Of a stretch of 64,000 nucleotides of DNA, positions 2,629 through 61,367 are shown one piece after another (position 1 is the first letter of the stretch; each line of letters opens with the position of its first letter). The notes under the pieces were generated by a model, which had not been told where the DNA came from, made no database searches, and was given only the letters and a program-made list of their open reading frames with translations. The position numbers were made by a program, and so were the translations under genes. The DNA is from Puniceicoccaceae bacterium (GTDB lineage Bacteria; Verrucomicrobiota; Verrucomicrobiia; Opitutales; Coraliomargaritaceae). The stretch spans positions 267,703 to 331,702 of the forward strand of contig JAGYJE010000001.1 of the NCBI GenBank assembly GCA_018402305.1. The letters run 5' to 3'.

Positions 2629-3243
2629 ATGAACTACCCTATGACGACCAAAACCGAGGCAATTCCATCCGACGAGCTACTGATCAATCGCATCAAGGCG
2701 GGCGACCTATCTGCCTACAACGAGATCGTCACGCGTTACTACGACCGCATATTTGCCCGTGTTTCGCAGCTATTGAAAAATAAGCAGGATGCCGAGGAGG
2801 TCACGCAGGATGCCTTTATCCGTGCGCATCGGGGGTTGGAGAATTTTCGCGGCGAGGCTTCTTTTTCCACCTGGCTTTACCAAATTGCCACAAATCTCGC
2901 GCACAACCGCTACTGGTACTGGTTCAGGCGCAAGCGGGAACAGTCGATTTCCATCGACCAGCCTTTGACAGATGATGGCAGTATGACGCTTGAAAATGTG
3001 ATGCCCTCCGGGGGAGAAAGTCCAGCCGAGGCAGCCGTTACGCAAGAGTTTGTCGATCGGGTTTCGGAATGTATGCAGGGTCTCAACGAAAAACACAAAG
3101 AAGTGCTGATTCTGAGAAACGTTAAAAATTTAAGCTATGATGAGATCGCCTGCCAGCTGGACATCAGCGTTGGCACAGTGAAGAGCCGGATTGCCCGTGC
3201 CCGAGAGAGCTTGCGCGATCTGATGGGCAGCGATTTTTCGTGA
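2629..3243 (+). CDS. RNA polymerase sigma factor, ECF/sigma-70 family
   Basis: Region 2 (DAEEVTQDAFIRAHRGLENFRGEASFSTWLYQIATNLAHNRYW) and region 4 (LRNVKNLSYDEIACQLDISVGTVKSRIARARE). Confidence 0.93.
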   Translation: MNYPMTTKTEAIPSDELLINRIKAGDLSAYNEIVTRYYDRIFARVSQLLKNKQDAEEVTQDAFIRAHRGLENFRGEASFSTWLYQIATNLAHNRYWYWFRRKREQSISIDQPLTDDGSMTLENVMPSGGESPAEAAVTQEFVDRVSECMQGLNEKHKEVLILRNVKNLSYDEIACQLDISVGTVKSRIARARESLRDLMGSDFS

Positions 3244-15709: not shown

Positions 15710-16831
15710 ATGGTGGGCGGCGTTATGGGACGACGAATACGCAGATTGGTGTCGAGAAAATCTACAGTTATCCACCACGCGATGAGCCGCATCGTGGGTG
15801 GTCAGATGCTTTTGGGTGACCGGGAAAAGGAGGTGCTGCGGCGTCTGCTCTGGCGGGTGGCGGATTTTTCGGGGGTGGAGGTGCTAACGTATTCGATTAT
15901 GTCGAACCACTTCCATGTGCTGGTGCGGGTGCCGGAGAAGGACCGGGCGGTCTCGGATGCGGAGCTCCTGCGGCGCTTTAAGGTGCTCTACCCGAAGCCG
16001 ACGCGGTATCAGACGGCGTCTTTTGCCCGTTTGGAGAGCGCTCTGCGGGAGGGGACGGAGGAAGCAGTAGCGGTGCGAGCGCAGCTATTGGCGCGGATGC
16101 ACGATCTTTCTGAATTCATGAAGACGCTGAAGCAGCGCTTTTCGATCTGGTATAACCGGAACCATGACAATCGACTGGGCACCTTGTGGATGGACCGTTT
16201 TAAGAGTGTGCTGGTGGAGGGGAAGGGCAATCCGCTACAGACGATGGCGGCTTATATCGACCTGAACCCGGTTCGGGCGGGGCTGGTGGAGGATCCGAAG
16301 GACTACCGCTGGTGCGGCTATGCGGAGGCGGTGGCGGGGCATCTGAAGGCACAGCGTGGGCTGGAGGTGGTTTGGGCGACCTATGCGAGTGGCGGGATGC
16401 GGGATACGGGTGGCGAGATACGGGATACGGGTGGCGAGCTACGGGATAGGGGTGGCGAGATGCGGGATGCGGGATCCGGGGTACGGGATGCGGGTGGCGG
16501 GGCGCGATTGAAGTCGGCTTTGGCGGCGCATCGGAGTTTGATATTTGGGAAGGGAGCTTCGCCATGGGATTGTCGGGGGAAGCGGATCGACCGGGCGACG
16601 GCGGAGCGGGTTTTAAATGAGGAGAATGGGGAGCTACCGATGTCGGTGGTCCTGCGCTGCCGGGTGCGTTATTTTACAGATGGTGCAGTGCTGGGCACGG
16701 CGGAGTTTGTTCGGGGCTATGCGGCGGCGTGGCAGGCGGGGCGTGGGCGACGGCATCCGGTGGCGGTGCGGGGGGCACCGTGGGGTGATGTCGCGGTGGT
16801 CAATGCCCTGCGGCGGGCGGTGTTTGGGTGA
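15710..16831 (+). mobile_element. REP-associated tyrosine transposase / Y1_Tnp family transposase
   Basis: YSIMSNHFHVLVRVP (HUH), FMKTLKQRFSIWYNRNHDNRLGTLWMDRFKSVLVE, YIDLNPVRAGLVEDPKDYRWCGY. Confidence 0.93.
16400..16504 (+). repeat. 21-bp in-frame tandem repeat x5 inside transposase
   Basis: cgggatacgggtggcgagata-type units encoding RDTGGEI/RDTGGEL/RDRGGEM/RDAGSGV/RDAGGGA. Confidence 0.9.
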
Positions 16832-59243: not shown

Positions 59244-59439
59244 ATGAAACTCATACGTTACGCATACCCACAAACGCAGGCGACCAACGCCTTCAATCGT
59301 CTCTTGCTTGGAGCGCTCCCTATCGGTGCCCGACGGCGTCGATCTGGATAAGATCTCGGCCACGATGAAAGATGGCATTCTCCTTCTCAGTCTGCCCAAG
59401 GCGGATGCGGTCAAAGCGAGAAAAATCAAAGTCAGCTGA
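59244..59439 (+). pseudogene. Hsp20 (small heat-shock protein) remnant: N-terminus fused out of frame to C-terminus
   Basis: ATG frame gives MKLIRYAYPQTQATNAFNRLLLGALP...stop; +1 frame gives LERSLSVPDGVDLDKISATMKDGILLLSLPKADAVKARKIKVS*, a typical Hsp20 C-terminus. Confidence 0.75.
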
Positions 59440-59465
59440 CCCGCAGGGTCCCGGTATCTCAATCG

Positions 59466-59495
59466 AGCGGTAGCCCAGCGGCTACCGCTTTTTTT
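59466..59495 (+). terminator. Rho-independent terminator
   Basis: AGCGGTAGCC-cagc-GGCTACCGCT followed by T-run. Confidence 0.85.
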
Positions 59496-59503
59496 GTGTC
59501 GCC

Positions 59504-59619
59504 GGGCACCCCTCCACCGCGCTGCGCGCGGTCCCCCTCCCCTCGAAGAGGTGAGAAATTTCGAGAAAAAAGCTCCTTCCCCCGTGGGGAAGGTCACCTG
59601 CTTGCCAGGTGGGAAGGGG
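59504..59619. repeat. Hairpin-rich dispersed repeat, copy 1
   Basis: GGGCACCCCTCCACCGCGCTGCGCGCGGTCCCCCTCCCCTCGAAGAGGTGAGAAATTTCGAG...CTCCTTCCCCCGTGGGGAAGGT... Confidence 0.88.
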
Positions 59620-59687
59620 CTTGTGTCTGGCGGCGAACCGGACCGATTCATAAATCGAAGGACTTTTCGGGAGGATACCGAAGGCCC

Positions 59688-59805
59688 GGGCACCCCTCCA
59701 CCACGCTGCGCGTGGTCCCCCTCCCCTCAAAGAGGTGAGGAATTTCGAGAGAAACTCCTTCCCCCGTGGGGAAGGTGGTCGGCTCGCCCGACCGGAAGGG
59801 GGCCG
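59688..59805. repeat. Hairpin-rich dispersed repeat, copy 2
   Basis: GGGCACCCCTCCACCACGCTGCGCGTGGTCCCCCTCCCCTCAAAGAGGTGAGGAATTTCGAG...CTCCTTCCCCCGTGGGGAAGGT...; same orientation, offset 184 bp. Confidence 0.88.
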
Positions 59806-59844: not shown

Positions 59845-60876
59845 TCAAAGCAAGGGCGTCGTATCCGAGTCGAGATACCATTTTATAGTGCTTCGCAGGG
59901 CGGCATCAAACGTATGCCGGGGCGCCCAGCCGAGATCATTGCGGATTTTGGAGGCGTCAATCGCGTAGCGGAAGTCATGCCCTGGGCGATCATCGACGAA
60001 CTCGATTTGCTCGGCATAGGAGCCACCCTGCGAACGGGGTTTGAGCGTGTCGAGGATCCCGCAAATACGTTTGGCCAGTTCAAGATTGGTCCACTCATTC
60101 GCTGCTCCGATGTTGTAGCGCTCACCCGGGCGGCCACGGGAGAGGGCGAGGAGGAGGGCGGCCACGCAATCATCGACATAAAGCCAGTCGCGGGTGTTGA
60201 GCCCATCCCCGTAGATCGGTATGGCGCGGCCGGACAGGGCGTTTAGAATGACCTTGGGGATCAATTTTTCCGCATGTTGAAAGGGGCCGAAGTTATTCGA
60301 GGCGTGGGCCGTGATAACCGGGAGCCCGTAGGTGGCATGCCAGGCTTGGGCGAGATGGTCCGCCGCCGCTTTACTGGCGGAGTAGGGCGAGTTCGGAGCG
60401 TAGGGGCTCGATTCGCTAAAGCTTCCGCCGTCGGCGAGAGAGCCGTAAACTTCGTCGGTGGACACTTGCAGGACGCGAAAGGCCGCCCGGGCCGGGCCGT
60501 CCAATGATGCGTAGTGGGCGCGGGCCGCCTCCAGCAAATTGAAGGAGCCGATGATATTCGTCTGGACGGAGGTGCCCGGACCGGCGATGGATCGGTCAAC
60601 ATGGCTCTCGGCGGCGAGATGGATCACGGCGTCTGGCTGAAACTCCGCGAACTGCGTCTGGACGGCCGCAGCATCCCGCAGGTCCACTTTCGCGAGGCGG
60701 TAGCGAGGGTCGTTTGCCAGCGTCGCCTGCTCGCGGGCATTGGCCGCATAGGTCAGGCTGTCGACGTTCAGAATCGCTATCAGGCCCTTGTCCGCCAGCA
60801 CGGCGGGATTGCTGAGCAGCGCGCGGATACAGTGATTCCCGATAAATCCAGCCCCACCTGTAATGAGAATTTTCAT
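59845..60876 (-). CDS. rfbB: dTDP-glucose 4,6-dehydratase
   Basis: MKILITGGAGFIGNHCIRALL, HLAAESHVDRSI, VSTDEVYGSL, YSASKAAADHL. Confidence 0.95.
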   Translation of the reverse strand: MKILITGGAGFIGNHCIRALLSNPAVLADKGLIAILNVDSLTYAANAREQATLANDPRYRLAKVDLRDAAAVQTQFAEFQPDAVIHLAAESHVDRSIAGPGTSVQTNIIGSFNLLEAARAHYASLDGPARAAFRVLQVSTDEVYGSLADGGSFSESSPYAPNSPYSASKAAADHLAQAWHATYGLPVITAHASNNFGPFQHAEKLIPKVILNALSGRAIPIYGDGLNTRDWLYVDDCVAALLLALSRGRPGERYNIGAANEWTNLELAKRICGILDTLKPRSQGGSYAEQIEFVDDRPGHDFRYAIDASKIRNDLGWAPRHTFDAALRSTIKWYLDSDTTPLL

Positions 60877-60884
60877 AGCCTGGT

Positions 60885-61367
60885 CTACCCGATCCAAACC
60901 AAATCTCCGGTCCGAACCCGATCAAAGAGGTGGATGACATCCGCGTTGGCCAGCTCGACACAACCACCGCTGAAAGGCTGGCCAATCCGGTCTTCGTGAT
61001 TCGTGCCATGGATGTAAATGTAGCGGTCGTAGGAATCGCAGCCGGGGCCGCTGTTGACACCCGGCTGCAGACCCCGCAGCCGTAGGATTCGGCTGGTGAT
61101 TAAATTGGCGGTCGCCGCTTCCGCAGGGACCTCGCTAAATAATTGGCCCGTCGAGACGCGCCCCCGGAAGACGGTGCCAGGCGGTGCATCCGCTCCGATT
61201 TTGTCGGCAATGCAGTGCAGCCCGGTCGGGGTGCCGAAGGAATCAGCCTGGCAGGAAGACGGATTCTTGGAGGTCGACACGGCAAAACGCTCGACGATGG
61301 TTTCGCCCTCGATCCGGGCCATCGCCTGCTCCGCAATCGAGACGAGCAGGCAGCAATCCGTGGGCAT
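60885..61367 (-). CDS. L,D-transpeptidase (YkuD) family protein
   Basis: IYIHGTNHEDRIGQPFSGGCVELANADVIHLFDRVRTGDLVWI. Confidence 0.88.
   Translation of the reverse strand: MPTDCCLLVSIAEQAMARIEGETIVERFAVSTSKNPSSCQADSFGTPTGLHCIADKIGADAPPGTVFRGRVSTGQLFSEVPAEAATANLITSRILRLRGLQPGVNSGPGCDSYDRYIYIHGTNHEDRIGQPFSGGCVELANADVIHLFDRVRTGDLVWIG

Follow-up and report, generated by a model that had tools for sequence, protein, structure and literature searches.

The closest described systems to the repeat analysed here are the REP/BIME/REPIN elements, the MITEs and the CIR repeats of bacteria. REP, BIME and REPIN sequences are palindromes tagged with GTAG and CGTC, and complementary stem variants have already been described for REP families (PMC3733652, PMC3116915). 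A review covers bacterial MITEs, among them the terminator-like SPRITE of S. pneumoniae (PMC10969869). The CIR repeats of Caulobacter and other alphaproteobacteria are elements of ~110 bp built from two stem-loop arms and a linker, with a conserved GANTC in the terminal loop (PMC2229807). Small palindromic repeats are usually credited to RAYT transposases; the family described below occurs in hosts without Y1 enzymes, and its tens to hundreds of copies per genome include so many natural stem variants that selection on the fold can be read from them directly.

The window, a 64,000-nt stretch from a Puniceicoccaceae bacterium, carries two tandem copies of a composite consisting of a unit A and an inverted unit B. 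The two-copy structured repeat proposed in the initial annotation was borne out: the copies were re-found independently (59502/59686, 69 nt, 93% identity; 59565/59747, 55 nt, 78% identity), searching the window with a gapped pattern for unit A, or with the hairpin of unit B, hits these two places and nothing else (0 hits expected from shuffles), and hairpins A, B and C are all present in both copies, at the following positions.

59509..59557, plus strand: unit A, copy 1 (BOX, palindrome, BOX', antiBOX arm)
59509-59515, plus strand: BOX CCCCTCC of unit A, copy 1
59516-59532, plus strand: palindrome (hairpin A) ACCGCGC-TGC-GCGCGGT of unit A, copy 1
59533-59542, plus strand: BOX' CCCCCTCCCC of unit A, copy 1
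about 59548-59557, plus strand: antiBOX arm GAGGTGAG of unit A, copy 1
59565..59593, minus strand: intrinsic-terminator-like site of unit B, copy 1 (8-bp hairpin, then AGCTTTTTTC)
59575..59619, minus strand: unit B, copy 1, with the architecture of unit A but inverted
59575-59593, minus strand: hairpin B CCTTCCCC-CGT-GGGGAAGG of unit B, copy 1
59595-59611, minus strand: palindrome (hairpin C) CACCTG-CTTGC-CAGGTG of unit B, copy 1
59612-59619, minus strand: outer BOX GGAAGGGG of unit B, copy 1
59620..59692, no strand: linker from the outer BOX of unit B, copy 1, to the BOX of unit A, copy 2
59693..59741, plus strand: unit A, copy 2, with antiBOX arm
59693-59699, plus strand: BOX of unit A, copy 2
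59700-59716, plus strand: palindrome (hairpin A) ACCACGC-TGC-GCGTGGT of unit A, copy 2, with compensated A:T
59717-59726, plus strand: BOX' of unit A, copy 2
59747..59775, minus strand: intrinsic-terminator-like site of unit B, copy 2 (hairpin, then AGTTTCTCTC)
59757..59801, minus strand: unit B, copy 2
59757-59775, minus strand: hairpin B CCTTCCCC-CGT-GGGGAAGG of unit B, copy 2
59777-59793, minus strand: palindrome (hairpin C) GGTCGG-CTCGC-CCGACC of unit B, copy 2
59794-59801, minus strand: outer BOX GGAAGGGG of unit B, copy 2
59845..60897, minus strand: convergent neighbour gene, 3' end toward the repeats

The antiBOX of unit A reads GAGGTGAGGA and is separated from BOX' by a short loop; on the minus strand, unit B has the order CCCCTTCC, palindrome, ACCTTCCCC, short loop, GGGGAAGG. 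The linker differs in sequence from the other linkers of the genome. The repeat region sits between two convergent genes, the right-hand one of which we take, from our own reading of its product, to encode a putative dTDP-glucose 4,6-dehydratase. A short, apparently truncated reading frame (59245-59440, plus strand), presumably similar to the C-terminus of an Hsp20-type protein, is followed by an 11-bp terminator (59465-59490) and then by the repeats. Synteny of the locus within the genus is lost beyond metG.

As single-stranded DNA, hairpins A, B and C fold as drawn on both strands (z -2.3 to -3.4), and as RNA the 311-nt repeat region is more stable than its shuffles (z -3.5 for the plus strand, -5.2 for the minus strand). 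By its letters, CCTTCC could instead pair with the outer GGAAGG. In copies own_C6 and G042 all three boxes are altered, CCTTCCCC to CCTCCCC, GGGGAAGG to GGGGAGG and GGAAGGGG to GGAGGGG; this concerted change, which may be a single event, is what would be needed if two boxes paired alternately with one antiBOX.

A search of the 3.1-Mb genome to which the window belongs returned 33 matching pieces and 19 exact framework matches, the latter versus 0 in the reversed control; unit A (about 22 full copies) and unit B (about 20) occur there in clusters. The paired G:C to A:T change originally noticed in hairpin A holds between the two window copies but not genome-wide. Hairpin A is perfectly paired in 14/22 full unit A copies and imperfect in 8/22, where the faults are A.C, C.C or worse and in most cases an A.C or C.C in the fourth base pair; the compensated A:T is found in window copy 2 only among the 22. 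Since eight stems are imperfectly paired and one copy alone is compensated, covariation of hairpin A fails within this genome. The stem swap proposed for hairpin C covaries well among relatives and is more than a two-state swap. Besides CACCTG/CAGGTG and GGTCGG/CCGACC, the genome has long, nested unit B palindromes that contain inserted sequence; the interior of hairpin C thus also occurs in long, nested versions (such as CACCTGGCTCTCCTGAGCAAAGCCGAAGGGCTTGCCAGGTG), and the CTTGC "loop" seems to be a remnant of these. Relatives carry the further variants GATCGG/CCGATC and CACCGG/CCGGTG. Over own copies and relatives together, 98% of hairpin C cells are paired versus 74% in shuffled sets, covariation is 0.68 versus 0.26, both sides change in 4/6 pairs, and slid controls collapse. 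Unpaired stem changes in other copies, which the initial annotation had named as counting against its proposal, thus tell against hairpin A in the window's genome, and not against hairpin C or the family. At one further locus (L050; G000:C56:38500-46500, around 3000-3200) the interior of unit B is expanded by tandem CCGTCTACGCTCCTCGAGCTT / GACGCCGGACAA inside the palindrome, as if palindromic inserts nested in the element.

Beyond this genome, 84,980 species genomes were scanned with the exact framework, a pattern that fixes part of the stem; the named carriers among the matches listed are Sphingomonadales, Caulobacterales, other Alphaproteobacteria, several Clostridiales-labelled MAGs and one Bacillota-labelled MAG, where MAG taxon labels can be wrong. 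The stem-free pattern CCCCTCC-N-CCTCCCC-N-GGGGAGG found 4-198 copies per genome in 12 genomes, versus 0-2 per strand for the reversed pattern; two Sphingomonas genomes hold 87 and 56 copies. Copies are also carried on Sphingomonas and Sphingobium plasmids, at up to 20 places per record. Among 178 distinct sequences of the inner region, where the stem is not fixed by the search, a perfect stem of >= 6 bp is present in 119, compared with 2 after shuffling, and this inner hairpin shows dozens of unrelated stem sequences around a conserved GNA loop. An independent set from viral contigs gave hairpins in 57/60 new sequences versus 4 shuffled, with 39 distinct arms. For the 60 sequences of the unit A set in 7-3-7 geometry, 94.8% of cells are paired versus 79.2% shuffled and covariation is 0.43 versus 0.14; here, as for hairpin C, cell counts are not independent events, because the copies are related. 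No mismatch occurs at the three inner pairs of this set; pair 5 takes four pair types and pair 6 three. Pairing is missing at pair 4 in 16/60. The family-level case for stem rewriting under a conserved fold is therefore strong, the supposition that a structure is what is conserved is supported, and evolution appears to preserve the fold of this repeat family, not its letters.

The two Sphingomonas genomes further allow orthologous sites to be compared (flanks mostly 88-94% identical, 77% on one side), the differences being without polarity, with gain and loss not assigned. Units here form "-+" composites of ~130 bp with the ends ATCCTCCCC...GGGGAGGAT, and the spacers of 53 inverted unit pairs peak at 31-32 and 37-38 nt. 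One composite is present in one genome and absent from the other (L275:5454 vs L308), and at two sites a full composite is matched by a single terminal hairpin (L273 vs L293, L287 vs L295). These single hairpins, of the form TCCTCCCC-loop-GGGGAGGA, may be deletion scars or pre-insertion hairpins. Elsewhere the composites differ by parts: the left palindrome is the same and the right one rewritten (L274 vs L293), both palindromes are the same while spacer and loops differ (L292 vs L302), or both palindromes differ and one loop is kept (L275:9421 vs L308). The suggestion that stems are rewritten as a unit is thereby supported, stems and loops changing as modules, and there are orthologous sites where the stem has been replaced and its pairing kept. 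The L274/L293 and L292/L302 pairs favour module exchange over independent reinsertion at the same site, a possible though less favoured source of the differences. An ambiguous candidate for a target site duplication is CATGAC, which flanks the element on both sides at one site, whose matching empty site has diverged. Another palindromic repeat (GTCATCCCAGCGAAGGCTGGGATCTC...) lies at two orthologous intergenic sites (L286:7844 vs L297, L275:14274 vs L308) that are occupied in the other Sphingomonas genome by units of the BOX/antiBOX family.

On the strand complementary to the unit, the triloops are GNA in 93/106 cases (26/37 in the independent set), and tetraloops are partly GNRA, a class known from RNA. 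C-GNA-G is a class of extraordinarily stable DNA mini-hairpins. GCGAAGC mini-hairpins are used in the literature as stable DNA mini-hairpins. Stem mismatches are predominantly A.C on the unit strand (55 vs 3; 17 vs 0 in the independent set), i.e., G.U or G.T on the complementary, sense strand; lying mostly at pair 4, they may represent few inherited events. With genes called by a home-made simple codon-usage script, 48 placements at loci among the exact-framework matches listed were 17 convergent, 30 tandem and 1 divergent against a background of 55/147/61, or, by type, L-R- 24, L+R- 17, L+R+ 6 and L-R+ 1 against 81, 55, 66 and 61. The antiBOX adjoins an opposite-strand stop codon in most placements, often within about 20 nt, so the GNA-loop strand is the sense strand for the adjacent gene. 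Clusters of the window's genome are convergent in 10/17 cases and divergent in 2/17. Hence, the units sit 3' of genes and avoid divergent promoters.

Each of the 10 distinct unit B hairpins of the window's genome has a T-tract directly behind its antiBOX, and unit B is predicted to be terminator-like on the minus strand, the strand of the right-hand convergent gene. In Alphaproteobacteria only a short ATYT follows the antiBOX, and the Clostridia set has CAAGGGG or alike there and no T-tract. A G+C hairpin with T-tract, as in an intrinsic terminator, is accordingly found in unit B of the window's genome, weakly in alphaproteobacteria and not in the Clostridia set; termination is therefore not general and has at most a local role.

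Taken together, we favour, with a probability of roughly 0.55, a REP/MITE-like non-autonomous mobile element of gene 3' ends whose fold is selected in single-stranded form, probably as RNA; the repeat of the window would be a local tandem of it. Its unit is BOX, palindrome, BOX', loop and antiBOX, and the units, usually in inverted pairs, lie just 3' of genes. In the single-stranded form, most likely the transcript 3' end, two hairpins would arise, one from the palindrome and one from BOX':antiBOX, and antiBOX could pair with BOX instead of BOX'. Such a structure might act as a terminator where a T-tract follows the antiBOX, as in unit B, and elsewhere probably as a barrier protecting or defining the mRNA end. 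Selection would act on pairing, loop and boxes and be blind to the stem letters, so that stems could drift by compensated changes and also be exchanged as modules between copies; exchange is the route we infer for the module differences. Mobilisation would occur in trans by a separate enzyme. A broader proposal, a cross-phylum and RAYT-free class of mobile 3'-end elements with interchangeable cassettes selected for fold alone and moved by machinery not yet described, is put forward only tentatively.

The main rival to the RNA 3'-end reading places the role at the DNA level: extruded or single-stranded hairpins would be recognised by a transposase, recombinase or nucleoid protein, and the RNA fold would be a by-product. 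The C-GNA-G loops, matching the stable DNA mini-hairpin class, fit such a role equally, and the presence/absence polymorphism, the plasmid-borne copies and the folding of single-stranded DNA on both strands agree with it; yet a site acting purely as DNA would hardly call for a fixed orientation to stop codons, the avoidance of divergent regions or the T-tract of unit B, and we consider this reading possible but rather doubtful. It is unlikely, and less probable still, that the fold is not selected at all and that template switching (quasi-palindrome correction) during replication perfects the hairpins while recombination spreads the copies. Whole stem modules do change at orthologous sites, and a composite facing a single-hairpin stub resembles deletion between repeats, but the A.C mismatches at pair 4 persist, and correction alone would leave the conservation of the TNC/GNA loop, of the boxes and of the 3' location unexplained. 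A purely mutational origin of the pairing is thus disfavoured.

Least credible is a classical REP/REPIN moved by RAYT (Y1) transposases, which is largely refuted. Inverted dimers of short palindromes, intergenic and in high copy, would suit it, as would the some two dozen Y1_Tnp (PF01797) genes of the window's genome; however, no BOX, BOX' or antiBOX unit was found in the flanks of these loci, and among carriers from outside the window's family, 13 genomes were searched with PF01797 and 12 gave no match, the single match being in Sphingobium chlorophenolicum. Nor does any copy read bear a GTAG/CGTC tag at the hairpin foot, the feet being flanked by CCCCTCC and CCTCCCC. The RAYT dependence raised in the initial annotation consequently finds no support, and membership of REPIN/RAYT was rejected on the Y1_Tnp evidence. 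One Y1_Tnp gene lies inside the window (about 15809-16261, plus strand); many of those in the genome encode 330-413 aa with the domain split into two matched pieces, and one (L228:1913-3034) contains an in-frame degenerate repeat (MRDTGGEIRDTGGELRDRGGE...). A family of this kind gives a way to test by what means RAYT-independent repeats are moved, and whether they serve as RNA 3' ends.

At the gathering threshold of Rfam 15 the window gives one tRNA only and nine copy-bearing loci give none, and neither Rfam nor the open literature searched yielded a description that matches the repeat. Stem variability, the novelty claimed at the outset, is as such not new, since complementary variants have been described for REP families; the box framework, the spread beyond one phylum, the Y1 independence and the module exchange at orthologous sites were not found described in the open literature searched. 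With the CIR repeats the family shares an intergenic, alphaproteobacterial location and two stem-loop arms joined by a linker; membership was rejected, as GANTC occurs in 5/53 spacers and does not form a fixed loop. Like MITEs and SPRITE, it comprises ~130-bp inverted composites that are intergenic, terminator-like and polymorphic for presence, and in Sphingomonas these are short non-coding composites with terminal inverted repeats and insertion polymorphism; unlike MITEs, its internal palindromes are variable and its terminal repeats are themselves hairpins. Like REP/BIME/REPIN, it consists of short extragenic palindromes in high copy, with inverted dimers and complementary stem variants, and the inverted palindrome pairs with a short spacer that mark REPINs are present (53 pairs). 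Unlike REP, it has a palindrome with a C-rich box on either side and, in addition, an antiBOX, is untied to Y1 transposases, and keeps one framework in Alphaproteobacteria and in Clostridiales- and Bacillota-labelled MAGs.
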